A stretch of 21,682 nucleotides of DNA from a virus: positions 1 through 21,682 of IMG/VR virus record IMGVR_UViG_3300037584_003071; one strand, 5' to 3'. Below, one piece after another: positions 1 to 14,072 of this stretch. Made by a program: the position numbers and the translations under genes. Numbering within the stretch: the stretch's first letter is position 1; every line of letters begins with the position of its first letter. The notes beneath the pieces were generated by a model. It made no database searches. It saw only the letters and a list, made by a program, of their open reading frames with translations, and was not told where the DNA came from.

Positions 1-643
1 CTGTGCATATCTTTGTACTTATTTCTCTAAACTCTTTATTACTACATATACTACTGTAGTTACTGTCAACCTGGGGGTTTACTTTTTTGCCCCTTTGGTC
101 AACGTGAGGTTGACTTTTCTTCATCTCTAAATCAACCTGGGGGTTGACTTTACTAAAGTTATCCACAGGCTTTTCGATGACTTTCAGTGTCTCTTCAGCG
201 TCTTGTACTTCCACAAAGTCCGGCTTGTTATGCGCTATAATATCCTCATCGGTAGTCTTAGGATCGTACAGTATTCTCCAGGTCGCTCCCTTTCTACCTT
301 TCTTTCGGAGTGGGTTCTCCTTGTAGATCTTCTTGATGTATCCACACTTCTCCAGCAATCGCATCTGCCGACTGACAGCCTGTTTAGATATGCCCAATCG
401 ATTAGCAATAGTAAGCTGGTTCGTGAAGACAATCCCACTGTGCTGATTGGCATGGCAACAGATAGTTCCTAAGACCCGGATAGAGGCATTGAGTATTCTA
501 GCATCGGCAAATACTCTGGAAGGCAGTACAGAAAAAGGGGAGGGAGCGGTCGTATTATCTACCGACAAGCTATGCTTTTTAGGAGGCTGGAGTAACTCCT
601 TCCGGGCCTGCTTTATCTCTGCTATTTTCTCGCTATCTCTCAT
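1..643 (-). CDS. Replication initiator-like winged-helix protein, 3' end beyond the left edge
   Basis: Seen: starting at the ATG at 643, 214 codons stay open to the window edge, so the gene is partial. Residues 73-108 form a winged helix-turn-helix (core IANRLGISKQAVSRQMRLLE, then GYIKK and a basic wing, RKKGRKG). Residues 165-197 hold three 11-residue repeats (KVNPQVD, KSQPHVD, KVNPQVD). These are the translation of three palindromic DNA repeats next to a DnaA box. Known: lambda O and many plasmid or phage initiators bind iterons lying inside their own gene. Inferred: this is the phage replication initiator, binding its own coding DNA to open the origin. The start overlaps the stop of the upstream PP-loop gene (ATGA), which implies translational coupling. 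A MarR-type regulator is the alternative, but the embedded iterons argue for replication. Confidence 0.72.
   Translation of the reverse strand, partial: MRDSEKIAEIKQARKELLQPPKKHSLSVDNTTAPSPFSVLPSRVFADARILNASIRVLGTICCHANQHSGIVFTNQLTIANRLGISKQAVSRQMRLLEKCGYIKKIYKENPLRKKGRKGATWRILYDPKTTDEDIIAHNKPDFVEVQDAEETLKVIEKPVDNFSKVNPQVDLEMKKSQPHVDQRGKKVNPQVDSNYSSICSNKEFREISTKICT
66..151. repeat. Three iterons with dyad symmetry at a 33-bp period
   Basis: Copies start at 66, 99 and 132, so the start-to-start spacing is exactly 33 bp twice, about three helical turns, which would place bound proteins on one face of the DNA. Copies 1 and 3 match at 19 of 20 positions. The core is TCAACCTGGGGGTTGA, with 6-bp arms around TGGG. 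Copy 2 (TCAACGTGAGGTTGA) is one base shorter in the centre and keeps 5-bp arms. ACTTT follows the right arm in all three copies. Because 33 is a multiple of three, the repeat also appears as an 11-residue repeat in the encoded protein. Confidence 0.8.
159..167 (+). promoter_or_regulatory. Perfect DnaA box (TTATCCACA)
   Basis: The 9-mer TTATCCACA is identical to the high-affinity E. coli DnaA box consensus. It sits 7 bp beyond the third iteron and inside the initiator gene. No other perfect copy was noticed in the window by eye. Placement next to iterons makes a functional role in origin opening likely, by host DnaA or by the phage DnaA domain IV-like protein at 1647-1958. Confidence 0.65.
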
Positions 644-1485
644 AGTCCGGTACACTCTCCATCGTCAGCTTGACAAAGCACTCCTTCCGTATCGAATATC
701 CAATCCCCCTGCCGGGAAACAAAGTTTTCTATGTCAGCAAATCTTCTTGTAGCATGAAAGTGGGCTTCTCTTCCAACTGCCTTTGAATGGTTATTTTCAA
801 TATCAATCCACCATTGCATCCGTTCTGGATGTTCTCGAAACATCATCGCCAATGTTGCTTCAGATTTAAGAAAACAGCCATCACAATTTCCCTTTGGCGT
901 AACTCCATTCTTTCCCCACAGAGCAAGGTCAAATGATTGTTGTTCCCAGAAGTCCATAATTATAGATTTGGTTGCACCTGCATGGTAAAGAGGATACCAA
1001 TTATCCCATCTGTTGTCCTTCGAGGGCTTAATTCTTCTTTGCTCGTCACCTCTGATCCCAATACAGTTAATCCATTTCTTCCAGCCAAGACTTTTTAAAT
1101 ACCTTTTAAACGTCAGAACCTTTAAATCTTGCGTACAAAATCGCCTATGAACATTTGGCAATATACCTTTACCCTTGAGCAGTAATTCAAAAGGCTCTCC
1201 GTTTCGTGATGCAGAGTTGTGGTTGACAATTTGAAAAGTACTTCTCTTACCAATCTTAGTGTATTCTAACCAAGTGATAGGAACTCCCCACTCCTCACCG
1301 CATCGCTGAACAAAGTCTAATGTTTCTGGCATCTCTCGACCGGTGTTTGCAAAGACAACCTTGCAACTATCTGGCAAAATAAACTGTTGTGCTTCAAGTA
1401 TTTTATACAACATAAATGCTGATGTTCTGCCTCCAGAGAAGGAAATCAATACGTTAGCATCTGGTAATGTAAAGCTATCTCTCAT
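640..1485 (-). CDS. PP-loop ATPase / PAPS-reductase-like enzyme
   Basis: 281 aa. Seen: the N-terminal PP-loop SFSGGRTSAF (15-24), the FANTGRE strand typical of the adenine nucleotide alpha-hydrolase fold (45-51), and cysteines at 117 (FCTQD), 201 and 204 (CDGC), 271 and 278 that could hold a metal or Fe-S cluster. Known: phage relatives are annotated as phosphoadenosine phosphosulfate reductase-like. The superfamily also includes the DNA phosphorothioation protein DndC and tRNA thiolation enzymes. Inferred: an adenylating or sulfur-transfer enzyme acting on nucleic acid or a nucleotide rather than true assimilatory sulfate reduction, since no other sulfur genes are nearby. It lies in the replication operon, with its start overlapping the 66-aa gene and its stop overlapping the initiator gene. 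Confidence 0.8.
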   Translation of the reverse strand: MRDSFTLPDANVLISFSGGRTSAFMLYKILEAQQFILPDSCKVVFANTGREMPETLDFVQRCGEEWGVPITWLEYTKIGKRSTFQIVNHNSASRNGEPFELLLKGKGILPNVHRRFCTQDLKVLTFKRYLKSLGWKKWINCIGIRGDEQRRIKPSKDNRWDNWYPLYHAGATKSIIMDFWEQQSFDLALWGKNGVTPKGNCDGCFLKSEATLAMMFREHPERMQWWIDIENNHSKAVGREAHFHATRRFADIENFVSRQGDWIFDTEGVLCQADDGECTGL

Positions 1486-1960: not shown

Positions 1961-2353
1961 TTATACTTCCTTGATCTGCGTACCGGGATAACAAGCCTCG
2001 ACCAACTTCTTCTTTAAACGATAGATAGGTGTTTTGAAGCCTTTCACATCCTCTACTATCTGGCCCTCCTTGTCCCCGGTCATCGTGGGTGTCTGCCACT
2101 CGCCTTTCGAATTGAAAGATCGCTCTTTGCTTTCCGCTCGTACCGTGAAGTACCGGAAGTCTGCCTTGTATTTGCATATGTCTACCCCATTAACTGTTAT
2201 TTGATACTCCGGCTGTAACTCTAAGTGGGTTATCATGCCGGCCTTCTCTAGTACCTTCAGCTCGCTATATCTTTTGGCCTCTCGTTTACTGTCGAATGTG
2301 ATGCCATCTATTGTGGTCTTGACGGCTTTATATTTACTTCTGCTCCAGTTCAC
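1961..2353 (-). CDS. DUF1064 family protein, PD-(D/E)XK nuclease-like
   Basis: 130 aa, GTG start overlapping the RHH gene stop (GTGA). Seen: the DUF1064 hallmarks, in order FDSKREAKRYSEL (20-32), GMITHLELQPEY, KYKADFRYF, IVEDVKGFKT and YRLKKKLVEA. The Asp in ADFRYF followed by the VEDVKG strand resembles the D...(D/E)XK metal site of restriction-like nucleases. Known: DUF1064 proteins are common in the early regions of phages of Gram-positive and Gram-negative bacteria. Inferred: a DNA-processing nuclease in replication or recombination. No target can be named from the sequence. Confidence 0.82.
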   Translation of the reverse strand: MNWSRSKYKAVKTTIDGITFDSKREAKRYSELKVLEKAGMITHLELQPEYQITVNGVDICKYKADFRYFTVRAESKERSFNSKGEWQTPTMTGDKEGQIVEDVKGFKTPIYRLKKKLVEACYPGTQIKEV

Positions 2354-2592
2354 CGGGTAAAATCTCGCGCTACCATACTGTCTAAAGCAGAGTTAAGATC
2401 GGTGGTTAATCTATCCTGGCGGTAGTTCGTAACTGCTGGCTTACCCATTTGTTGTTCCAGCATAAAAATGATTTGTTTATTGAGTGATCTCTGGGCCGGT
2501 TTAGCCAACTCTACTAGCTGATCACGCAGTTTTGTGTCCACTCGTAGGTGAATTTGTACATTTTCTGTACCCTCTAAGTCGTTGTTTTCCAT
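2350..2592 (-). CDS. Arc-like ribbon-helix-helix DNA-binding protein
   Basis: 80 aa. Seen: residues 13-50 carry VQIHLRVDTKLRDQLVELA followed by RSLNKQIIFMLEQQM, which is the beta strand plus two-helix pattern of Arc/MetJ regulators. The C-terminal 30 residues are an extra tail. The ATG at 2592 follows GGAAAGCT. It is the first gene of the leftward operon and faces a divergent operon across about 120 bp containing two dyads, so it is probably the autoregulator of that region. A plasmid-type partition or antitoxin role is possible, but no partner toxin or ParA is seen. Confidence 0.78.
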   Translation of the reverse strand: MENNDLEGTENVQIHLRVDTKLRDQLVELAKPAQRSLNKQIIFMLEQQMGKPAVTNYRQDRLTTDLNSALDSMVARDFTR

Positions 2593-2712: not shown

Positions 2713-2982
2713 ATGGGTTACTTTGAAGAATGTGTAAAAGGTATAGAAAGATTAATTCCGGCAGAATGGGAATGCACTACCTGGCACCATGATGCGTGTC
2801 CATCGTACAGACTTGGAAATAAAAAAATGTTTATTGACCATCCAGATCCAGACAAAAGGGAAAATGAAGATTGGAAAAGGTTCTCGGTCACCAATGATGA
2901 TGAAACATCTGATGATTACCAAATGATTGTTCTTCATACAGATAATTTTTACGAGGCACTTAAATATATGGAGCAAAGCTAA
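2713..2982 (+). CDS. Small acidic hypothetical protein, first gene of the rightward operon
   Basis: 89 aa from the ATG at 2713, chosen because AAGGAG lies 6 bases upstream; a GTG at 2695 would add six residues but lacks that spacing. Rich in Trp, Tyr, Asp and Glu, with no transmembrane segment and no recognised domain. It ends MEQS and its stop overlaps the next start (TAATG). As the first product of a divergent early operon, an early host-directed role is possible, but nothing in the sequence shows it. Confidence 0.6.
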   Translation: MGYFEECVKGIERLIPAEWECTTWHHDACPSYRLGNKKMFIDHPDPDKRENEDWKRFSVTNDDETSDDYQMIVLHTDNFYEALKYMEQS

Positions 2983-3166
2983 TGAAACTTAAAGCACTAA
3001 GCATTTCAGAAGTGACTGAAAGTTTATATGACGATTATTGGATGGATTGTACTGATGATGGTGAAACTCCTCTTGAGCAAAGCGAATGGCTCAAGCTCGA
3101 TGGAGTAAAGCAACACATCACATATATTCATTCTTTATTCGCCAAGATCAAGGAGCAAAGCTAATG
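2970..3166 (+). repeat. Repeated coupling junction GGAGCAAAGCTAATG (two exact copies)
   Basis: The 15-mer occurs at 2970-2984 and 3152-3166. Each copy supplies GGAG, the stop TAA of the upstream gene and the overlapping ATG of the next. A related junction, GGTGGAAAGCTAATG, occurs at 3931-3945, and the RHH start on the other strand reads GGAAAGCTATG. The three + strand genes thus share a re-used translation coupling element. Confidence 0.75.
2982..3164 (+). CDS. Small acidic hypothetical protein
   Basis: 60 aa, function not recognised. Starts at the ATG overlapping the previous stop and ends with KEQS, overlapping the next start (TAATG). It is coupled at both ends through identical 15-base junctions, GGAGCAAAGCTAATG, which supply the Shine-Dalgarno element for the following gene. 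Composition is acidic in the first two thirds (DDYWMDCTDDGE). No motif. Confidence 0.6.
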   Translation: MKLKALSISEVTESLYDDYWMDCTDDGETPLEQSEWLKLDGVKQHITYIHSLFAKIKEQS

Positions 3167-3943
3167 GCGCATACTATATACGAACCCGGTAAACCGCATA
3201 AGGGTGTATACCATGCCTACGTCCGGGTCAGTACCGACAAGCAGGATATCGAACGGCAGAAACACGTTATCACGACCTTTCTGAATGGCGGTAAGCATGA
3301 GGTGAAGTGGTATATAGACGAGGGTTACTCCGGTCGATTACCCTTTGACGATAGACCAGCCTTGAATGCGTGTCTCAAAGATGCGTTGAAGAGTAAGAAG
3401 AAGGGAGGGAAGGGGCATATCATTATTGCAGACTTCTCCCGACTATCACGACAGGCATGGCATGCTATGCAGTTCTTCGAAAAGGTTCTGGCAAAAGACA
3501 AGTGTAAGCTCATCATATGCGATAAGCCGGCATACTCTAATCTTGATACCGATGCACTAGTATCTATCCTGGGCCAAGAGAGTATGGTTTCTCAAGCAAC
3601 GGCTGAGAAAGTAAGCTCCGCTACTAAGCAGGGTCTTGCTAGGATCAAGGCAGAAATAACCAGCGAGGGTTTCTATACCGCTCGTAACGGTAAGACAGTC
3701 TATAAGCTCGGTGTCCATGAAAACATGGATCTTGCTAGAGAGAATGCTGGTATCCGGGTCAGTGATGATGCCGATGCCTTTGCCAGTATGTGGTACCCAG
3801 ACATACAGTACCGCCTCAATGCCGGGCATAGCTATCGTACTATAGCAGAAGAGTTCAACGCACGAGGGTTCAGTACTGCTCGTGAGGGTGGCAGTTGGCA
3901 TGCCTCCACAATTTCAAACATAATTAAGAGGGTGGAAAGCTAA
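3164..3943 (+). CDS. Serine recombinase (resolvase/invertase family)
   Basis: 259 aa. The ATG at 3164 is chosen because it overlaps the previous stop after GGAG. Seen: catalytic serine in YVRVSTDKQ (Ser23), the YSGR...DDRPAL region (55-67), and DFSRLSR (90-96), which matches the D-R..R active-site arginines of gamma-delta resolvase. The C-terminal part (about 200-255) holds a helix-turn-helix-like segment (RTIAEEFNARGFSTA then WHASTISNIIKRV) similar to the Recombinase domain. Known: the family makes two-base staggered cuts through a 5' phosphoserine link and acts as resolvase, invertase or phage integrase. It is shorter than large serine integrases. Inferred: resolves multimers or integrates. 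No att or res site was recognised. Confidence 0.88.
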   Translation: MAHTIYEPGKPHKGVYHAYVRVSTDKQDIERQKHVITTFLNGGKHEVKWYIDEGYSGRLPFDDRPALNACLKDALKSKKKGGKGHIIIADFSRLSRQAWHAMQFFEKVLAKDKCKLIICDKPAYSNLDTDALVSILGQESMVSQATAEKVSSATKQGLARIKAEITSEGFYTARNGKTVYKLGVHENMDLARENAGIRVSDDADAFASMWYPDIQYRLNAGHSYRTIAEEFNARGFSTAREGGSWHASTISNIIKRVES

Positions 3944-4440
3944 TGAATAAGGAAACTAATTTTGAACACGATGTGATTATTGAACATTTACTTCTTGAGA
4001 TTGAAAAGAAAGTTGCAAAAAGAAATATTGATATTTTTCGTATGCAGAACGAGAACAGCTACAGTGAGGGAAGGGATAGTGAGTATGTCAATTTTCTGAA
4101 TGAAAGTGTCTATGCCCGTCCTTTTTCTCATTTCACTATTCTTTGCACTCTTGAAAAAAGGTGGACAACAATTATAGAAGTCAGTCGTAAAATTAGATGC
4201 AATGATAAGACGGCTCGTAACCTTTATCAAAAAGCAATGGACTATGACATGATTTATCGTGATACAAGTCGCACAAAGCTATGTTTTAAAGCCACTCCAA
4301 GAGCTATGAAGATATATCGAAACTATATAAAAGCTCTCTATTGTGACCAGGGAGATGCTCTTGCCGACCATCTTACAGACATATTGCAGTATATGAAATA
4401 TACCAAAAAGCATGGTACTCAGTACCAAGTAAAAAGGTAG
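3943..4440 (+). CDS. Probable winged-helix protein of unknown role
   Basis: 165 aa, coupled to the recombinase by TAATG after GGTGGAAAGC. Residues about 61-125 look like a winged helix-turn-helix: HFTILCTLEKRW, then TTIIEVSRKIRCNDKTARNL as helices 2 and 3, then YDMIYRDTS..KLCFKATPRA as the wing. The N-terminal 40 residues are charged and helical. Inferred: a DNA-binding regulator, or an accessory to the recombinase (directionality factor or site-binding helper), based only on position and fold guess. Confidence 0.55.
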   Translation: MNKETNFEHDVIIEHLLLEIEKKVAKRNIDIFRMQNENSYSEGRDSEYVNFLNESVYARPFSHFTILCTLEKRWTTIIEVSRKIRCNDKTARNLYQKAMDYDMIYRDTSRTKLCFKATPRAMKIYRNYIKALYCDQGDALADHLTDILQYMKYTKKHGTQYQVKR

Positions 4441-4476: not shown

Positions 4477-4887
4477 ATGAGGGAGTACATGGTAAAAAAA
4501 CCGAACGAAAGGATCATGGTGTATAGTCGTAAAGAAAGAGATGACCGAACCCGGCAAGTGTTGGCGCAAGAAGTTAAACCTATGAACGCTATTGAAAGAG
4601 AGCGATGGTTGAAATCAGAGCGCAACTTCTATTACAATGCCTTTAGCCAGGGGAGGAGCTATGCCTCCAGACTTACGATACCTATGACCAACATTACCGA
4701 ACTGAAGAAGGCATCACGCGAGCTGAGTGCCTTGGCAAAAAAACTTGCTGAGATTAGCACACAGTCTACAAGCGTTGATGACCGAATTATTCTGGCGCAG
4801 TTCCATATTGGTTTGACCGGTAAGGATCTTAAACAAAGTGCGGTAGGGTTTGATCCCAAGACGGGCAGTTACCGTGGCATTAAATAA
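4477..4887 (+). CDS. Helical hypothetical protein of the recombination operon
   Basis: 136 aa from the ATG at 4477. A second in-frame ATG at 4489 follows GGGAG, but at only 3 bases, so the start is unsettled. Strongly basic N-terminus, then a helical segment with heptad-like spacing (ITELKKASRELSALAKKLAE), and a C-terminal VGFDPKTGSYRGIK. No known domain recognised. It precedes the exonuclease and annealase genes and may serve replication or recombination. The stop codon forms part of a repeated 12-base motif. Confidence 0.6.
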   Translation: MREYMVKKPNERIMVYSRKERDDRTRQVLAQEVKPMNAIERERWLKSERNFYYNAFSQGRSYASRLTIPMTNITELKKASRELSALAKKLAEISTQSTSVDDRIILAQFHIGLTGKDLKQSAVGFDPKTGSYRGIK

Positions 4888-4895
4888 AACCTAGA
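4884..4895 (+). repeat. Motif ATAAAACCTAGA, copy 1 of 3
   Basis: An exact 12-mer also found on the minus strand at 10062-10073 and 14086-14097. Here it contains the TAA stop of the 136-aa gene and precedes the 15-codon ORF. All three copies lie at gene junctions. Function unknown; a promoter part, an RNA-processing site or a recombination boundary are possible. Confidence 0.5.
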
Positions 4896-4906
4896 GGTAC
4901 CGTTTT

Positions 4907-4954
4907 ATGGATCGGAATAAATCCGACCACCACCTTTCAGGTTTACAACATTGA
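4907..4954 (+). CDS. Possible 15-codon leader ORF
   Basis: ATG at 4907 preceded by AGAGGT at 8 bases, encoding MDRNKSDHHLSGLQH, with its stop TGA at 4952-4954 running into TGAGGAG, the ribosome-binding site of the next gene at 4968. The arrangement would let ribosomes ending on it feed the next start. A short inverted repeat (TCGGA ATAAA TCCGA) lies within it. It may be chance. Confidence 0.25.
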   Translation: MDRNKSDHHLSGLQH

Positions 4955-4967
4955 GGAGTAAAAAAAC

Positions 4968-5240
4968 ATGATTGAAAGAAATCATACAAATAAGGTGCAT
5001 CTAAAACCTGGGAAAAAATTAAACCCGGATTTGGCTGATAATATATATTCCGTTTATAATCAACCCAGCCTCCCACTACTCAGCCAACTTAGAAATTCCA
5101 GACTTGTCAGGTCAGTCTGTCTATTCAGTCTAGACGCACTGGCTTTGCTGGCTATATCAGTTAGTCTTTACTACTTGGCGGTTGGCTCCTGCTTGTTAGA
5201 TGATGCTTGTTATACCATGTATTATGGAGTTTCGCAATGA
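4968..5240 (+). CDS. Small single-span membrane protein
   Basis: 90 aa, start supported by GAGGAG upstream. The N-terminal 45 residues are polar and basic. Residues about 50-76 (CLFSLDALALLAISVSLYYL) form one hydrophobic span, followed by a short tail with cysteines at 75 and 81. The stop overlaps the exonuclease start (ATGA). No family recognised. A membrane-anchored early protein could act in superinfection exclusion or RecBCD-type inhibition, but that is only a guess from position. Confidence 0.6.
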   Translation: MIERNHTNKVHLKPGKKLNPDLADNIYSVYNQPSLPLLSQLRNSRLVRSVCLFSLDALALLAISVSLYYLAVGSCLLDDACYTMYYGVSQ

Positions 5241-6211
5241 GTGCAAGTAAATACAAGGAATGGTTTACCGAGCATCCGGGAAAGATGACCGATAGTTACA
5301 CACATTTAGGATCATCCGATGCTGACCCTATTGCTTATGGAAAGGGTGAATTTGGCACAACCGCAGAAGATCTAAGAAAGTTTTCTGCCGGGGAGACAGG
5401 CTCCAGAGGCTCAAAGATGGCTAATGAGGACGCTCTATATCGAGGTAAGGTCTTTGAGGCACCAAATGTTATGATGACGCTTAGGTACCTTTGTAAGCTA
5501 ACTGAGGAAGAGAACATAACTTCGACTTATCCAGTGATGGAACCCGATGTGTATGAGGCTCTTCAAATGGCCTCGTCAATAGACCACAAGTTGTACTTTC
5601 ACAAGCCGGTGCATATCCCGGTGCCTGGAGTGAAGGATCAGTACATCACGATGCAGGGTGAAGTTATCAATGAACTGAAGTCTCAAATGTTGGGCAACGG
5701 TGAATTGATGAGGAACTATATCTCGCAAGTACAACACCAGCTTGTCTGTAGTGGTGGAGATTTTGCATTGGTATCAGTACTCAGTCGAACTGGTCAGCTC
5801 ACGGTCTATCCTATTGAAAGAGATAACGAGTGGATTGCCGACTATCTGAAAGAGGTAGCTGAATACTGGAGAAGAGTAGAGGAGAACGATCCCTATCCGG
5901 AGCCTATCGACAACGACTACGTTGCTGATCTCAATTCACTGGATGAGAGCGATACTCTGATAGATCTTTTGGAAAAGAGGCAGATGTTTGAGATACAGAG
6001 AAAACAGTTTGATGACGATAAGAAAGCTATCGATGACGGTATCAAGCAAGTGCTGAAGAGGTTTGATGTAAGCAAAGCATTCGTTGGCCCCTTCAAGATA
6101 TCTCTTACAACTGTGGAACGTAAGCCTCAACCAGAGCGAGTGGTACCAGCAACACCCGGTAGCACCTATGAAAAATTAACCGTTAGTTTGAATAAGGAAA
6201 ATGTACAATGA
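5237..6211 (+). CDS. YqaJ / lambda-Exo-like viral recombinase exonuclease, possibly diverged active site
   Basis: 324 aa from the ATG at 5237, with GGAG 7 bases upstream. Seen: LGSSDAD (24-30), like the G(G/S)SD start of YqaJ proteins; NELKS (145-149), like the catalytic E-x-K strand; then YISQVQHQL (161-169) and a strand followed by YPIERDNEWI and WRRVEENDPY, the usual C-terminal order. A coiled-coil tail (about 240-275) follows. Known: the family degrades 5' strands of double-stranded DNA to leave 3' tails for an annealase. The ERF gene follows with an ATGA overlap, which fits that pairing. Odd: where relatives have (S/T)PDG with the metal-binding Asp, this protein reads TMQG (138-141). Confidence 0.75.
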   Translation: MSASKYKEWFTEHPGKMTDSYTHLGSSDADPIAYGKGEFGTTAEDLRKFSAGETGSRGSKMANEDALYRGKVFEAPNVMMTLRYLCKLTEEENITSTYPVMEPDVYEALQMASSIDHKLYFHKPVHIPVPGVKDQYITMQGEVINELKSQMLGNGELMRNYISQVQHQLVCSGGDFALVSVLSRTGQLTVYPIERDNEWIADYLKEVAEYWRRVEENDPYPEPIDNDYVADLNSLDESDTLIDLLEKRQMFEIQRKQFDDDKKAIDDGIKQVLKRFDVSKAFVGPFKISLTTVERKPQPERVVPATPGSTYEKLTVSLNKENVQ

Positions 6212-6894
6212 GTAAAGAAATTACAACACATATTAAGGCACTGTCCAAGGTTCAGAAGGATCTTAAACACGCTAAGAAGGATGACAAGGGAGCCTTCGGG
6301 AAGTATGCCGATCTCGCTACAGTGTATGACGCTATTAAGGCACCTCTGGCAAGCAATGGTTTTGCCTACTGTCACGAGATGATCAACACCGAGGACGGCA
6401 CCCTCTATGTCGAAACACATTTACTGCATGAGAGTGGTGGCACGTTCAAAACACGATTGCCCATCATTAATCAGAAGAGAGATATGCAGGGCCTGGGTTC
6501 GGCTATCACCTATGCCAAACGATATGGCATTTCAATGATTGTAGGTCTAGCTTCAGAGGAGGATGACAATGGCAAGAGAGCTGGAACCGGGAATGTTAAT
6601 AACTCTGTAAAAGCTAAACCAATCAGTAACTTAGTTATTAAGACAAGAGAAGGAGAGGGTAAAGTCAAATCTCTTGATGGTGCTGTCATGCAGTTTAACA
6701 GCATACTCAAAGCTCAAATGGAAAAGTACAAGGGTAAAGAGCTGAGAGAAACCGGTGAGTTTATGCGGAAAGAAAACGCAGAGATACTTGATCAAATTAA
6801 AAACAATCCTGCCTGGATTAGCAACGGTAGCAATGAACGGTGGAACCAAATAGATAAGAAACTTAAAGAAATGGAGAATACAAAAGATGAATAG
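6208..6894 (+). CDS. erf: ERF-family single-strand annealing protein
   Basis: 228 aa. Seen: N-terminal ERF core with FGKYADLATVYDAIKAPL, then GFAYCHEMI, HLLHESGGTF, and the signature GLGSAITYAKRYGISMIVGL followed by EEDDNGK, as in P22 Erf and relatives. The C-terminal third (about 145-228) is charged and variable, as usual for the family. Known: these proteins form rings on single-stranded DNA and anneal complementary strands in phage recombination and genome circularisation. Coupled by ATGA to the exonuclease gene, giving an exonuclease-annealase pair comparable in logic to lambda Exo-Beta. Confidence 0.9.
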   Translation: MSKEITTHIKALSKVQKDLKHAKKDDKGAFGKYADLATVYDAIKAPLASNGFAYCHEMINTEDGTLYVETHLLHESGGTFKTRLPIINQKRDMQGLGSAITYAKRYGISMIVGLASEEDDNGKRAGTGNVNNSVKAKPISNLVIKTREGEGKVKSLDGAVMQFNSILKAQMEKYKGKELRETGEFMRKENAEILDQIKNNPAWISNGSNERWNQIDKKLKEMENTKDE

Positions 6895-10250: not shown

Positions 10251-10664
10251 TTAGCTCGGCTTTGTTGGCCAGGTAACAGAGGACATATCTAGCGACCCAT
10301 CACTACTTAGCTTTGGTGATGCACCACTTGGCAAATCACGCAATGCTTGTCGATAGGTTTTCCAGTTATCTGCAAGAGTTACATCAGAGTTTGCCATCCA
10401 ATCTGTTTCAGCAAGCAATCTATCTCTTTCAACTCTTAGCAATCGCATTGGCTCTGCATTGACTAGCTCTGTCTTTTTATCAGATACAGCTTTCCATGTA
10501 GTACCAAAGTCACTAGGCGTTGAGCTTTCAATGGCACTTCCATTGCTGTCTGCTCCAGTAACTTTGCGAAACATAGCGTTAAACTCTGCTTCACTTGTAG
10601 GCTCTCCTCTGAGTACCCATTCTTTAATTCCTAAACTTGTTAACGCTGTTGATATTGTTGTCAT
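10251..10664 (-). CDS. Tail assembly chaperone-like protein (Phage_tail_APC type), copy 2
   Basis: 137 aa. Seen: C-terminal half RLLRVERDRLLAETDWM, then NWKTYRQALRDLP, the R..RD.LL..TDW...W..YRQALRD pattern of Phage_tail_APC. The last about 25 residues (PKLSS, SVTWPTKPS) recur in the 74-aa protein at 11689-11913, so the two are paralogues. Known: such proteins accompany tail fibres and help their assembly. It is adjacent to, and coupled with, the fibre-tip-like gene upstream. Confidence 0.72.
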   Translation of the reverse strand: MTTISTALTSLGIKEWVLRGEPTSEAEFNAMFRKVTGADSNGSAIESSTPSDFGTTWKAVSDKKTELVNAEPMRLLRVERDRLLAETDWMANSDVTLADNWKTYRQALRDLPSGASPKLSSDGSLDMSSVTWPTKPS

Positions 10665-11164
10665 TGTTTTATCTCCTGTGCTACTAAAGTTGCCATTGCG
10701 CCATTAATAAATGCGTAAACTGTTCCCCCATTATGCGATAAACACGCAACTGTATATCTTAGTTGTGAAGTTGTTGATGGAGAGTCAAAAATACCACTAC
10801 AATGAACACCCCCCATAATATGATTGCCTGGGTTATATGCAGATGAAAACCCCCACGAGCTACCTAAATTTGTGCCACTTATTGCTGAACCTGATGATGC
10901 TGTGCCTGTTTCTCTAAATACAGTACCAACAACATGAGTGTTAGAAGTACTATATACAGGAAGGCTAAAACTTACTAAAATTTTAGAAGTAGAAAATTTT
11001 GGTGTAATTAAGGCAGTCAATGAAGTTGCAACAAAAGATGTACTTGTTAGGTTTATTTCAGTATTGTGTGTCGCATTTACAGTTTGAATAACATGACCAG
11101 CCGGCATAGCCACAGTTCCAGACGTTGTCTTACCCTGTATTGTATCGACTTTGAGTGTACTCAT
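10661..11164 (-). CDS. Tail-fibre accessory / receptor-binding-like protein
   Basis: 167 aa. Seen: N-terminal MSTLKVDTIQGKTTSGTVAM then PAGHVIQTV, followed by a Ser/Thr/Gly-rich beta-sheet-type region. The N-terminal block recurs in the next gene upstream (11161-11679) and, more weakly, in the gene at 11915-12424, suggesting a shared attachment module with variable tips. Alternation of hydrophobic and Ser/Thr residues fits a jelly-roll domain. Inferred: an adhesin attached to the tail. Coupled by overlapping stops and starts at both ends. Confidence 0.65.
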   Translation of the reverse strand: MSTLKVDTIQGKTTSGTVAMPAGHVIQTVNATHNTEINLTSTSFVATSLTALITPKFSTSKILVSFSLPVYSTSNTHVVGTVFRETGTASSGSAISGTNLGSSWGFSSAYNPGNHIMGGVHCSGIFDSPSTTSQLRYTVACLSHNGGTVYAFINGAMATLVAQEIKQ

Positions 11165-11679
11165 TGGGCAATCTCCTGAATTATAAGCTCAACGTGTTCT
11201 TCTGTGGTAGGTGGTAATTCAACATCTGCTGCTGAACCCATTGTTTTTACATATACTTTGTATGTTACCGCACTCGTTGTATTAGGAGCGTCCATGATTT
11301 CAAGCAACATTGGTGCGTGAGTTCTTGAATAAGTATTATAAAGAGAACCTATACCAAACCCACCCGAAGTTGACCTAACATCAGAAAAACCAGCTCCTCC
11401 AATATCTCTAAAAAATGTCATGCGGAAACCCTCAATGTTACCATTATTTTGATTGGTATTACCAGTAATAAAAGCCCTTACGTTAAGCTTACTCGTTGCA
11501 AATTTTGGTGTAATTGAATTACTCAGTCCTGTAGCTACATAGCTAGAGCTTGCTGTTTGTATTCTTGTAATTGTTGTTGACGCTAAACTTACTGTCTGTA
11601 TCACCATACCAGCTGGCATCTGCACAGTACCGCTTGCGGTCACTCCTTCGATTTTGTCTGCTTTTAATATACTTGCCAT
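11161..11679 (-). CDS. Tail-fibre accessory / receptor-binding-like protein, paralogue
   Basis: 172 aa. Begins MASILKADKIEGVTASGTVQ then MPAGMVIQTV, clearly related to the start of the 10661-11164 product. Both also share SSxVATGLSNSITPKF-like and ATSKLNV-like blocks and end in AQEIKQ / IQEIAQ, so the genes arose by duplication along their full length and then diverged in the middle. Beta-rich composition. Inferred receptor-binding or capsule-binding tip protein. No enzymatic motif seen. Confidence 0.65.
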   Translation of the reverse strand: MASILKADKIEGVTASGTVQMPAGMVIQTVSLASTTITRIQTASSSYVATGLSNSITPKFATSKLNVRAFITGNTNQNNGNIEGFRMTFFRDIGGAGFSDVRSTSGGFGIGSLYNTYSRTHAPMLLEIMDAPNTTSAVTYKVYVKTMGSAADVELPPTTEEHVELIIQEIAQ

Positions 11680-11688
11680 TCTCTTATC

Positions 11689-11913
11689 CTATGAAGGTTT
11701 TGTTGGGAAGGTTACACTATCGTAATCAAACATAACACCATTTGAGTTAAGTTTTGGTGTTGATTTACTGGGCAAATCTCTTAATGCTTGTCTATAGGTT
11801 TCCCACTCTTTTTTCTTTTCATCTGTTAATGGTGCGTTCGGAAGTTGTGTCCAATCACATCCAAGTAACATTTCATTTCTAATTCTTCTAAGTTCTATTT
11901 CTGCTGTAGCCAT
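11689..11913 (-). CDS. Tail assembly chaperone-like protein (Phage_tail_APC type), copy 1
   Basis: 74 aa. Seen: ELRRIRNEMLLGCDWTQLPN, then EWETYRQALRDLP and a tail SVTFPTKPS. It consists of the APC core only and matches the C-terminal half of the 137-aa protein at 10251-10664, including the ending. It follows the C1q-like gene immediately (one base between), as the second copy follows the other fibre-tip genes. Confidence 0.72.
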   Translation of the reverse strand: MATAEIELRRIRNEMLLGCDWTQLPNAPLTDEKKKEWETYRQALRDLPSKSTPKLNSNGVMFDYDSVTFPTKPS

Positions 11914-11914
11914 G

Positions 11915-12424
11915 CTACCCTCCTACATACACAATATCAAAAGCATTATGAGCAATTCCACCATGACCATTATAGTGACCTCCAGACCCACCAGATTGAG
12001 ATTGAAGAAATACTGTATAATAATCACTAGCGGAAGCAGTATCTGTAACTGACATATCTAACCAATTCCATCCTTTTCCAGAACCTGAAATGTATCCAGC
12101 CGTAACCTGTGAGTCGTTCTTTCGAATTTGATAATTTACATCTCTATCATAAATTATGGTTTTAAAATGCACATAATAAGTACCAGCTATTGGAACAGTA
12201 AATCTACCATTAGTATCATTTGAATAAGTAATTCCAGTTTGATGACGTAAAGTAACTGAAGTTTGAAAAAAAGATTCTCCTGTAGTCGTGTTTAAATTTC
12301 CATCGGTACTGTGGTATGCACTTATTCTAGGTACGTTAGATATATTTACTCTACCACTACTGTCCACAGTCATAGCTGTAGTATTATTCGTATGCGATAT
12401 GGTTTCTACTTGTAGCTTGCTCAT
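11915..12424 (-). CDS. C1q/TNF-like jelly-roll tail protein
   Basis: 169 aa from the ATG at 12424, which overlaps the upstream stop (ATGA); an upstream in-frame start at 12439 is less likely because it lies inside the neighbouring gene. Seen: MSKLQVETISHTNNTTAMTV then DSSGRV at the N-terminus, and a C1q-like pattern GITYSNDTNGRFTVPIAGTY, YVHFKTIIYDRD, QIRKNDSQV, DYYTVFLQSQSGG and a final FDIVYVGG. Known: C1q-like domains form trimeric sugar- or protein-binding tips in phage fibres. Inferred receptor-binding tip. Confidence 0.75.
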   Translation of the reverse strand: MSKLQVETISHTNNTTAMTVDSSGRVNISNVPRISAYHSTDGNLNTTTGESFFQTSVTLRHQTGITYSNDTNGRFTVPIAGTYYVHFKTIIYDRDVNYQIRKNDSQVTAGYISGSGKGWNWLDMSVTDTASASDYYTVFLQSQSGGSGGHYNGHGGIAHNAFDIVYVGG

Positions 12425-12603
12425 CAGACTATCACCCACGTTCCAGACACAGTTACTGTGGCATTCAATGTAATAGGCCCTGGAGATACAGCATTGTTAT
12501 TTGCGTCTATGGTTAATGCATTGTTTATTGTGTTTTCTACCTGGCGAATAACTGGCTCATAGCTAGAGCCATCCGCTTGTTTTCCGATGCTATACTCTGA
12601 CAT
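12424..12603 (-). CDS. Small beta-rich structural protein
   Basis: 59 aa, ATG at 12603 overlapping the upstream stop (TAATG), stop overlapping the C1q-like start. Seen: MSEYSIGKQADGSSYEPVIR, then NALTIDANNNAVSPGPITL and TVSGTWVIV at the C-terminus. The NAVSPGPIT...VTVxxGTWVIV ending recurs in short tail proteins of marine phages as I recall. Probably a small tail or fibre component. Confidence 0.7.
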   Translation of the reverse strand: MSEYSIGKQADGSSYEPVIRQVENTINNALTIDANNNAVSPGPITLNATVTVSGTWVIV

Positions 12604-12971
12604 TATGTTATCTCCATTATAGACATTGTGACCGATACTTTGTCCGTGACTGATGCATCTACTGAAATTAGATCCCCTTGGTTCATAACGTGTTTACCAC
12701 CTACCAAGGCTTGTTTAGTTTCTCCAACTGCAAGAGGTATATTTTTTTGCAAAAAGGTTGTCTGGTTGTTACTCTCTCGACCATTCCCTGATGCAGATGT
12801 TGTTGAAACGTGCTTGATGCTGTAAGTTATTTGTGAGGTATGCTCGTTTGCAATCATTAAGCCAATGACAACTGTGGTTGTGGCTGGAGAGGTAGGACAA
12901 GTATATAACGTCTCAAATGTACCAGCACTTGCTGGCATAACCTGACTTACCGATTTAAATGTGTTTGCCAT
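12603..12971 (-). CDS. Tail accessory structural protein
   Basis: 122 aa, start supported by AAAGGAG. Seen: MANTFKSVSQVMPASAGTFE, TLYTCPTSPATTTVVIGLMI and GDLISVDASVTDKVSVTMSI. The YTCP...TTVV.GL.IAN pattern resembles tail accessory proteins of T4-like and T7-like cyanophages. Beta-sheet composition, no enzymatic residues evident. It sits directly downstream of the tail fibre gene (15 bases), which supports a role in the tail tip or fibre base. Confidence 0.65.
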   Translation of the reverse strand: MANTFKSVSQVMPASAGTFETLYTCPTSPATTTVVIGLMIANEHTSQITYSIKHVSTTSASGNGRESNNQTTFLQKNIPLAVGETKQALVGGKHVMNQGDLISVDASVTDKVSVTMSIMEIT

Positions 12972-12986
12972 ATATTTTCTCCTTTA

Positions 12987-14072
12987 CTAACCCAAGGCAA
13001 TGCTTAGTGCCGTGGCCTCGTCTGCTATGTCTGTTGTTAAAGCTATTGTTCCGGCTGTAGCTGGTAGGGTTAAAGTTATGTTTCCACTGAATGCACTGTG
13101 AGCCGGTGCCTGTAGTTGTGCATAGTGAGCGTTTGAGCTTTCGCAGTAGAACCGTACATAAGACTGCGCTCCACCATTCTTTATTGATATCGCTCCCTGG
13201 GATATATCCACACCAGTAGATCCATCTATCCTAACGACACCCGATCCATTTGGAGTGAGAGTGATATTACCGTTTGATACTGAGACAATATCCTGCCCAT
13301 TAACATCAAGCGATCCTCCAAGCTGAGGAGTTAGATCTGTTACGATATCCCCTCCAGATACACCTTGTGGGCCTTGTGGGCCGGTGTCTCCTTGTGGGCC
13401 TTGCGCTCCGGTTGCGCCAGTAGCACCAGTTGCACCGGTTGCCCCAGTAGACCCAGTAGACCCGGTTGCTCCTGCCGGTATACCCAATGTGAATGAGGCT
13501 GTGCCTCCAGATACACTGACACTAGCTGTTGGACTAGCACCAGCACTCAATCCGCTAACCGATACACTTGCCCCGGTCACTTGTTGAGTAGCCTCTGGAT
13601 TACCGGTTGATGAGTTAAACCCTAGTACCTTACCAAGTCGGGAGGCTTTGACAGGCAGTATAAAATTAGCCCCCGAAATGGTATCATGCTCAGGCACAAG
13701 TAAAGCTCTATCCAGTCTCTGATCGTGTTGCTGGTGGTGCATGAACTGATTGTTGAACTCTGTCTCCAATGATGAGGCGGTGAGGGTGCCTCCGGTGGTA
13801 AACTGTGATGTCCGTGAAATCGGGATGTTCGACATAATTGTGATAGTCTGTGCGTTTGTCGGAAAGTTCCCGGATGTAAAACTTATTGATCCGGTGCCAT
13901 CTGCACTGAGCGACACTGTGTAATGTGTTGTTAGGGTCTTGACCGTACTATCGACATAGACCTTTATCTCCGAGGTAGCGTTTACCTGGAACGAGAAACT
14001 GAACGGCCCAGCATCCGCAGGGTTGTTTCCGGTATATTGTATTCTCCGATCTTGTGCTGTTATGTTTGTCAT
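12987..14072 (-). CDS. Tail fibre: T7 gp17-like N-terminus, collagen-like stalk, C-terminal tip
   Basis: 361 aa. Seen: residues 1-155 match the podovirus tail-fibre N-terminal pattern (RRIQYTGNN, FSFSFQVNATSEIKVYV, YTVSLSADGTG, LETEFNNQFMHHQQHDQRLD), which binds the tail. Residues 201-239 are 13 Gly-X-Y triplets forming a collagen-like stalk. The C-terminal part (240-361) is beta-rich (QLGGSLDVNGQDI, ITLTPNGSGVVRIDG, LTLPATAGTIALTTD), as in marine phage fibres. It is shorter than T7 gp17 (553 aa). AAGGGG precedes the ATG by 8 bases. The genes downstream probably extend its host range. Confidence 0.88.
   Translation of the reverse strand: MTNITAQDRRIQYTGNNPADAGPFSFSFQVNATSEIKVYVDSTVKTLTTHYTVSLSADGTGSISFTSGNFPTNAQTITIMSNIPISRTSQFTTGGTLTASSLETEFNNQFMHHQQHDQRLDRALLVPEHDTISGANFILPVKASRLGKVLGFNSSTGNPEATQQVTGASVSVSGLSAGASPTASVSVSGGTASFTLGIPAGATGSTGSTGATGATGATGATGAQGPQGDTGPQGPQGVSGGDIVTDLTPQLGGSLDVNGQDIVSVSNGNITLTPNGSGVVRIDGSTGVDISQGAISIKNGGAQSYVRFYCESSNAHYAQLQAPAHSAFSGNITLTLPATAGTIALTTDIADEATALSIALG
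13356..13472 (-). repeat. Collagen-like Gly-X-Y repeat in the tail fibre gene
   Basis: Thirteen consecutive Gly-X-Y codon triplets: GAT, GST, GST, four GAT, GAQ, GPQ, GDT, GPQ, GPQ, GVS. Such stretches fold as collagen triple helices and give a flexible stalk. Short imperfect repeats of this kind change length by slippage. The apparent proline- and valine-rich open frame on the opposite strand is a reflection of this repeat. Confidence 0.85.

Follow-up and report, generated by a model that had tools for sequence, protein, structure and literature searches.

Large serine integrases combine a complete recombinase domain with a zinc ribbon and reach ~450 aa or more. The MEP301-like podovirus group has, to our knowledge, a plaque-type isolate as its sole cultured representative. 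MEP301, a phage of Methylophilales (OM43), was isolated by infection of its host, and its genome was assembled as a circle. Its gp04 (QRV71432.1, MW452941) is a serine recombinase encoded right upstream of the YqaJ and ERF genes, and the MEP301 authors considered that this copy may be non-functional. A literature search on phage-plasmid resolvases or marine-podovirus serine recombinases found nothing relevant except MEP301's own paper. Here we analysed a gene of this type in a fragmentary IMG/VR virus contig of 21,682 bp (the window). We propose, with a probability of about one half, that its product is an active resolvase that acts on circular multimers of the phage genome and yields monomers.

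Phage context and gene layout

The window is a piece of a podovirus genome of ~32 kb; the phage is probably marine and is a relative of MEP301. The podovirus structural genes noted in the initial annotation are indeed present, and the closest near-complete relative (G004, 32.4 kb) adds TerL, a T7-like portal, a probable scaffold, capsid and tail tubular proteins; no polymerase was seen in G004. The TerL proteins of G004 and MEP301 are 63% identical. The phage is MEP301-like in its gene content: homologues of TerL and of the portal, capsid and tail genes follow the conserved order and accompany a recombinase–YqaJ–ERF module. A gene-by-gene comparison found the same gene order in all relatives. 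The two ends of G004 share 413 bp at 89%, suggestive of a circular map that was closed by strain variation. The features of the window that bear on the recombinase are as follows.

2-655, minus strand: O-like replication initiator (winged helix-turn-helix), cut by the window edge
66-85, ~98-114 and 132-151, no strand: three iteron-like dyads in the initiator gene, near-identical and of the GTCAACC..GGTTGAC type
2350-2592, minus strand: Arc-like ribbon-helix-helix (RHH) protein, divergent from the recombinase operon
2593-2712, no strand: putative promoter region, divergent, separating the RHH gene from the recombinase operon
2713-3164, plus strand: two small open reading frames (2713-2982 and 2982-3164) between promoter and recombinase
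3164-3943, plus strand: small serine recombinase, with a catalytic domain (~aa 15-165), a long E helix, a variable linker (169-188) and a C-terminal helix-turn-helix (~aa 220-258)
3943-4440, plus strand: 165-aa open reading frame right after the recombinase (stop/start overlap), variable among relatives
5237-6211, plus strand: RecE/YqaJ-like recombination exonuclease
6208-6894, plus strand: ERF-family single-strand annealing protein

Two further elements of the initial annotation proved real: the iteron-type initiator, whose gene contains the three near-identical dyad repeats, and the RHH protein, which matched Arc in Pfam slightly under the cut-off and Arc-like families in PHROG. We also observed a PAPS-reductase-like gene (646-1473) that is missing from close relatives and is inserted precisely between the initiator gene and that gene's upstream neighbour. 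A 14-bp direct repeat (GCTATCTCTCATAG) flanks it at 632-645 and 1474-1487, and because of this repeat the initiator gene and the PAPS-reductase-like gene share their first codons. The short protein encoded at 1647-2177 is conserved in the close relatives that cover this stretch, and its C-terminal part resembles the DnaA DNA-binding domain only (PF08299, under the cut-off; NCBIfam DnaA, E=1.3e-6). DnaA boxes were not in excess in the window.

The recombinase protein and its active site

The recombinase gene encodes 259 aa. Its ATG shares bases with the stop codon of the preceding gene (TAATG), and GGAGCAAAGC lies ahead. In Pfam, aa 18-163 matched the PF00239 catalytic domain (E=2.8e-19), which, with the catalytic residues described below, bears out the initial assignment of a serine recombinase to 3164-3943. 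The C-terminal aa 218-255 matched PF07508 ('Recombinase', E=8e-5) over 36 of its 102 positions. The predicted structure comprised an alpha/beta catalytic domain, a long E helix (129-167), a poorly predicted linker and three helices (188-219, 224-234 and 247-258). This order of elements in the model, whose mean pLDDT of 70 is adequate for the catalytic domain alone, is that of serine recombinases. The top Foldseek match of the model was the Sin recombinase (3pkz, E=3.1e-5), and Sin resolvase also topped an alignment-profile search of solved structures (E=1.2e-10). Judged by its sequence, the protein is a small serine recombinase of the resolvase/invertase class: an N-terminal PF00239 domain carries the Ser/Arg set, and the helix-turn-helix alone follows the E helix.

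An alternative is that the protein is an integrase by which the phage genome enters the host chromosome. The catalytic domain is common to serine integrases of phages, and the TP901-1 integrase also matched in both the profile and the Foldseek searches, so that the catalytic domain alone cannot separate a resolvase from an integrase. The short PF07508-like piece, the name of the top PHROG family (integrase) and the finding of no other site-specific recombinase in the group would also fit this alternative. However, large serine integrases have full domains, a zinc ribbon and ~450 aa or more, whereas this protein has 259 aa and about a third of PF07508, and we regard an integrase as unlikely.

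Among 31 recombinases of the phage group, whose pairwise identity falls to 16%, Arg21, Ser23, Arg64, Arg93 and Arg96 were invariant. Of the active-site residues listed in the initial annotation, Ser23, Arg93 and Arg96 thus stand, but Asp90 does not. Its column holds Lys in 16 of the 31 relatives, and the Asp column of the D-R-x-x-R motif is occupied by Ser92 in the window protein (Asp in 21 relatives, Ser in 9 and Glu in 1). This replacement of the usual Asp by Ser in the window group counts against an active resolvase. The dN/dS of the gene was 0.07-0.11 across the window and four close relatives (85-92% identical); by this measure (~0.1) the recombinase is under strong purifying selection. 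Its low dN/dS and never-varying catalytic residues make activity likely, and this conservation argues that the recombinase family functions, contrary to the doubt of the MEP301 authors. Strictly lytic relatives with an inactive recombinase had been named at the outset as a finding that would speak against the proposal; a phage isolate exists, which is half of that at most, but the recombinase family looks active.

Instead of recombining specific sites, the protein could bind DNA or assist within the YqaJ/ERF pathway, or regulate its own operon. Its fixed place beside the exonuclease and annealase genes, with no other lysogeny genes recognised, is consistent with such a role, as are the Ser that the window group carries in its DRxxR motif and the MEP301 authors' view of their copy. 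Nevertheless, the five core catalytic residues kept in all 31 relatives count against a purely binding role, which would not need them, and we consider this explanation rather improbable.

Dyads, repeats and the search for a recombination site

Our search for a res or att site found none, and dyads were seen only in the promoter region and the initiator gene. The promoter region (120 bp) persists in each of the five close relatives and, in part, in L012, even though its operon side borders on different genes from one phage to the next. It contains dyads at 2622-2642 and 2651-2668 (ATAGTACCATTGTGCTAT), and no second copies of these dyads occur elsewhere in the window. The dyad TAAAAGT..ACTTTTA is absent from L012; the dyad ATAG..CTAT, which we take to resemble an Arc-type operator, is retained there and lies beside the Arc-like gene. 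We rejected both as res on these grounds. The region is best read as an Arc-like operator with promoters, with a res function as the alternative. The dyads in the initiator gene are spaced ~31-36 bp apart, which would suit a res, but they were also rejected because MEP301-type phages, all of which have the recombinase, lack them. Iterons are therefore the simpler reading. These in-gene dyads are probably an origin, and a lambda O-like origin is their best reading.

We also considered a DNA invertase acting as a switch for tail-fibre genes or for others. The second PHROG match was named 'DNA invertase', the best NCBIfam match was the Mpi invertase, although far under the cut-off, and the tail-fibre region is highly variable among relatives. 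By contrast, the longest exact inverted repeats in four genomes were 14-15 bp, not above those in shuffled sequence, and the matches of the relatives were collinear with the window, so that no invertible segment was found. Tail-fibre inversion was rejected for these reasons, and an invertase is very unlikely. The tail-fibre region itself (10251-14072) includes several paralogous small genes and a 56-nt repeat at 10309 and 11750 (79% identical), and its gene content varies strongly between otherwise close relatives.

Close relatives conserve the recombinase and the promoter region but vary in the cassettes on either side of the recombinase; 2713-3164 is one such swapped cassette, and each close relative has another one. 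In the window group, start-associated repeats (GGAGCAAAGCTAATG and near copies, at 2970-2984, 3152-3166 and 3931-3945) lie ahead of several genes near the recombinase. A repeat of unrelated sequence (AATAACTATATAAGGACTAAGAC, at most four copies) precedes, in MEP301-type phages, the cassettes located between the initiator gene and the recombinase gene (L022, L023, L026 and L055). The recombinase might move or exchange the small flanking cassettes through these short repeats at cassette starts, in keeping with the exchange of cassettes around a conserved gene and promoter region. Yet the repeats include a start codon with its ribosome-binding site and show none of the dyad symmetry that a serine recombinase would be expected to recognise. 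The two phage types have entirely different repeats, and homologous exchange driven by ERF/YqaJ gives the same pattern. We therefore give cassette exchange by the recombinase little credence.

Inheritance, lifestyle and a proposed role in multimer resolution

At least 566 TerL relatives were confirmed in IMG/VR among the first 600 pattern matches listed. To estimate carriage we used 17 contigs of at least 28 kb among the matches listed, retrieved by TerL rather than by the recombinase: 13 encoded exactly one PF00239 protein and four encoded none. The long relatives lacking a serine recombinase are L124, L125, L131 and L138 (32-36 kb). In L134, two adjoining serine-recombinase-like open frames occupy 4543-5978, as either a tandem pair or a broken gene. 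Across 38 MEP301-type contigs found with MEP301 gp04, the recombinase lies directly upstream of YqaJ wherever the contig extends there, and ERF follows in nearly all. Recombinase and TerL distances were correlated (Spearman rho 0.71, 0/2000 permutations), which indicates that the gene is largely inherited with the phage backbone. We found a tyrosine integrase in none of 29 viral contigs and a ParA-type ATPase (PF13614) in none of 30 related viral contigs.

Integrated or plasmid relatives, which the initial annotation suggested looking for, did not appear. Querying 84,980 genomes with the recombinase revealed no integrated relative, a weak point against an integrase given the scarcity of cultured hosts. 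TerL relatives at ≥60% in these genomes were only on short contigs (3.6-34 kb). One of these contigs (L182+L183; 34,477 bp, in a MAG), checked in full, proved to be an entire circular phage: its ends overlap exactly over 77 bp, and no host sequence flanks it. Distant TerL relatives occurred on long chromosomal contigs as prophages, and this recombinase was missing from the flanks fetched. PLSDB held two distant TerL matches only (30-36%) and no plasmid record of the phage group; the Bradyrhizobium PLSDB record, read whole, has an annotated tyrosine integrase. These missing prophages and plasmids are weak evidence because the hosts are rarely cultured and poorly represented. The initial view that a resolvase is as likely as an integrase holds, and a resolvase is the more likely of the two, given a size and domain layout like those of plasmid recombinases and the finding of no integrated relative. 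Of the suggestion of a phage-plasmid, the likeness of the initiator, RHH protein and recombinase to a plasmid backbone was borne out, but a phage-plasmid as such was not: ParA was found in 0/30 contigs, PLSDB has no record of the group and MEP301 is an infecting phage. Some phage-plasmids lack ParA, which is not a strict requirement.

Multimer resolution is the best reading of the O-like origin, the YqaJ/ERF genes and the single-copy recombinase in the same block, together with the circular maps of a complete relative (77-bp ends), near-complete G004 (413-bp ends, 89%) and MEP301. What the enzyme acts on, at which site and in which direction, and that the RHH protein is a repressor, are inferences. 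The recombinase would be part of an early replication-recombination module in a large, mostly marine MEP301-like group. Replication from an O-like, iteron-bearing origin, combined with annealing recombination by YqaJ/ERF, may generate head-to-tail multimers. The recombinase would bind a putative site of which each genome has one copy. Within a multimer, two copies in direct orientation would be paired, and a tetramer would cut with Ser23 and release monomer circles. These circles could serve circular replication, as well as stable maintenance if the phage persists extrachromosomally. The Arc-like RHH protein would probably repress the recombinase operon.

Several observations weigh against a resolvase. 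Our search yielded no res site, and the only conserved dyads adjoining the gene could equally well be an operator for the RHH protein. Four long contigs (32-36 kb) lack the recombinase, which suggests that the gene is not essential, and terminal redundancy or circular permutation also gives a circular assembly without a circular replicon. More tentatively than for the resolvase itself, and with some doubt, we suggest that a phage group without a tyrosine integrase or partition ATPase may run its own multimer resolution, in replication or as an extrachromosomal prophage. If multimer resolution is correct, the serine recombinase would belong to the replication genes of these phages and act at an as yet undescribed site. 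Most long members of the group, which is common in IMG/VR, encode a single serine recombinase that appears to be active, and no tyrosine integrase; this bears on persistence in the host and on how a phage without its own polymerase processes multimers. The published doubt about the function of the MEP301 copy deserves revisiting, and what was already seen but set aside in MEP301 is a conserved and, from the sequence comparisons, probably active small serine recombinase.

MEP301 gp04 and the window gene both encode a small serine recombinase and occupy equivalent positions upstream of YqaJ and ERF, and the two phages have related terminase and structural genes, with no integrase reported in MEP301. 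However, gp04 is only ~24% identical to the window recombinase, its PF07508 part is undetectable and its C-terminal region is different. Unlike the window, MEP301 has no annotated RHH gene divergent to gp04, and its initiator is shorter and lacks the in-gene dyads. Sin and Tn3-family resolvases share the catalytic domain, Sin being the best solved-structure relative by profile and fold, but they are shorter (~185-210 aa), with a simple helix-turn-helix and known multi-part res sites. Large serine integrases such as TP901-1 match in the catalytic domain but are much bigger, and their full recombinase and zinc-ribbon domains are unlike the window protein.

In cellular genomes, the closest matches found (26-29% identity) span almost the entire protein, the C-terminal helix-turn-helix included. 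They lie on plasmids and megaplasmids, mostly of Alphaproteobacteria, and several of these plasmids are small. A pair of small Roseobacter plasmids, pMaD11 (Marinovum algicola) and pP18_i (Phaeobacter piscinae), both read whole, encode Rep, ParA and a recombinase, with an RHH gene in one, and the C-terminal region of their recombinases is close to that of the window protein (S.R.IA.E.N.RG..TA..GG.WHA.T..NI). A plasmid-backbone likeness of the initiator, RHH protein and recombinase, without partition, is thus supported at the level of predicted proteins. Both plasmids have ParA and no virion genes, whereas the phages have no ParA-type ATPase. Compared with the recombinases of these two plasmids, the window protein is extended by 15 residues at its N-terminus and its linker is longer; it is ~28% identical to them over the whole length and shares their arrangement of PF00239 followed by a partial PF07508 helix-turn-helix.
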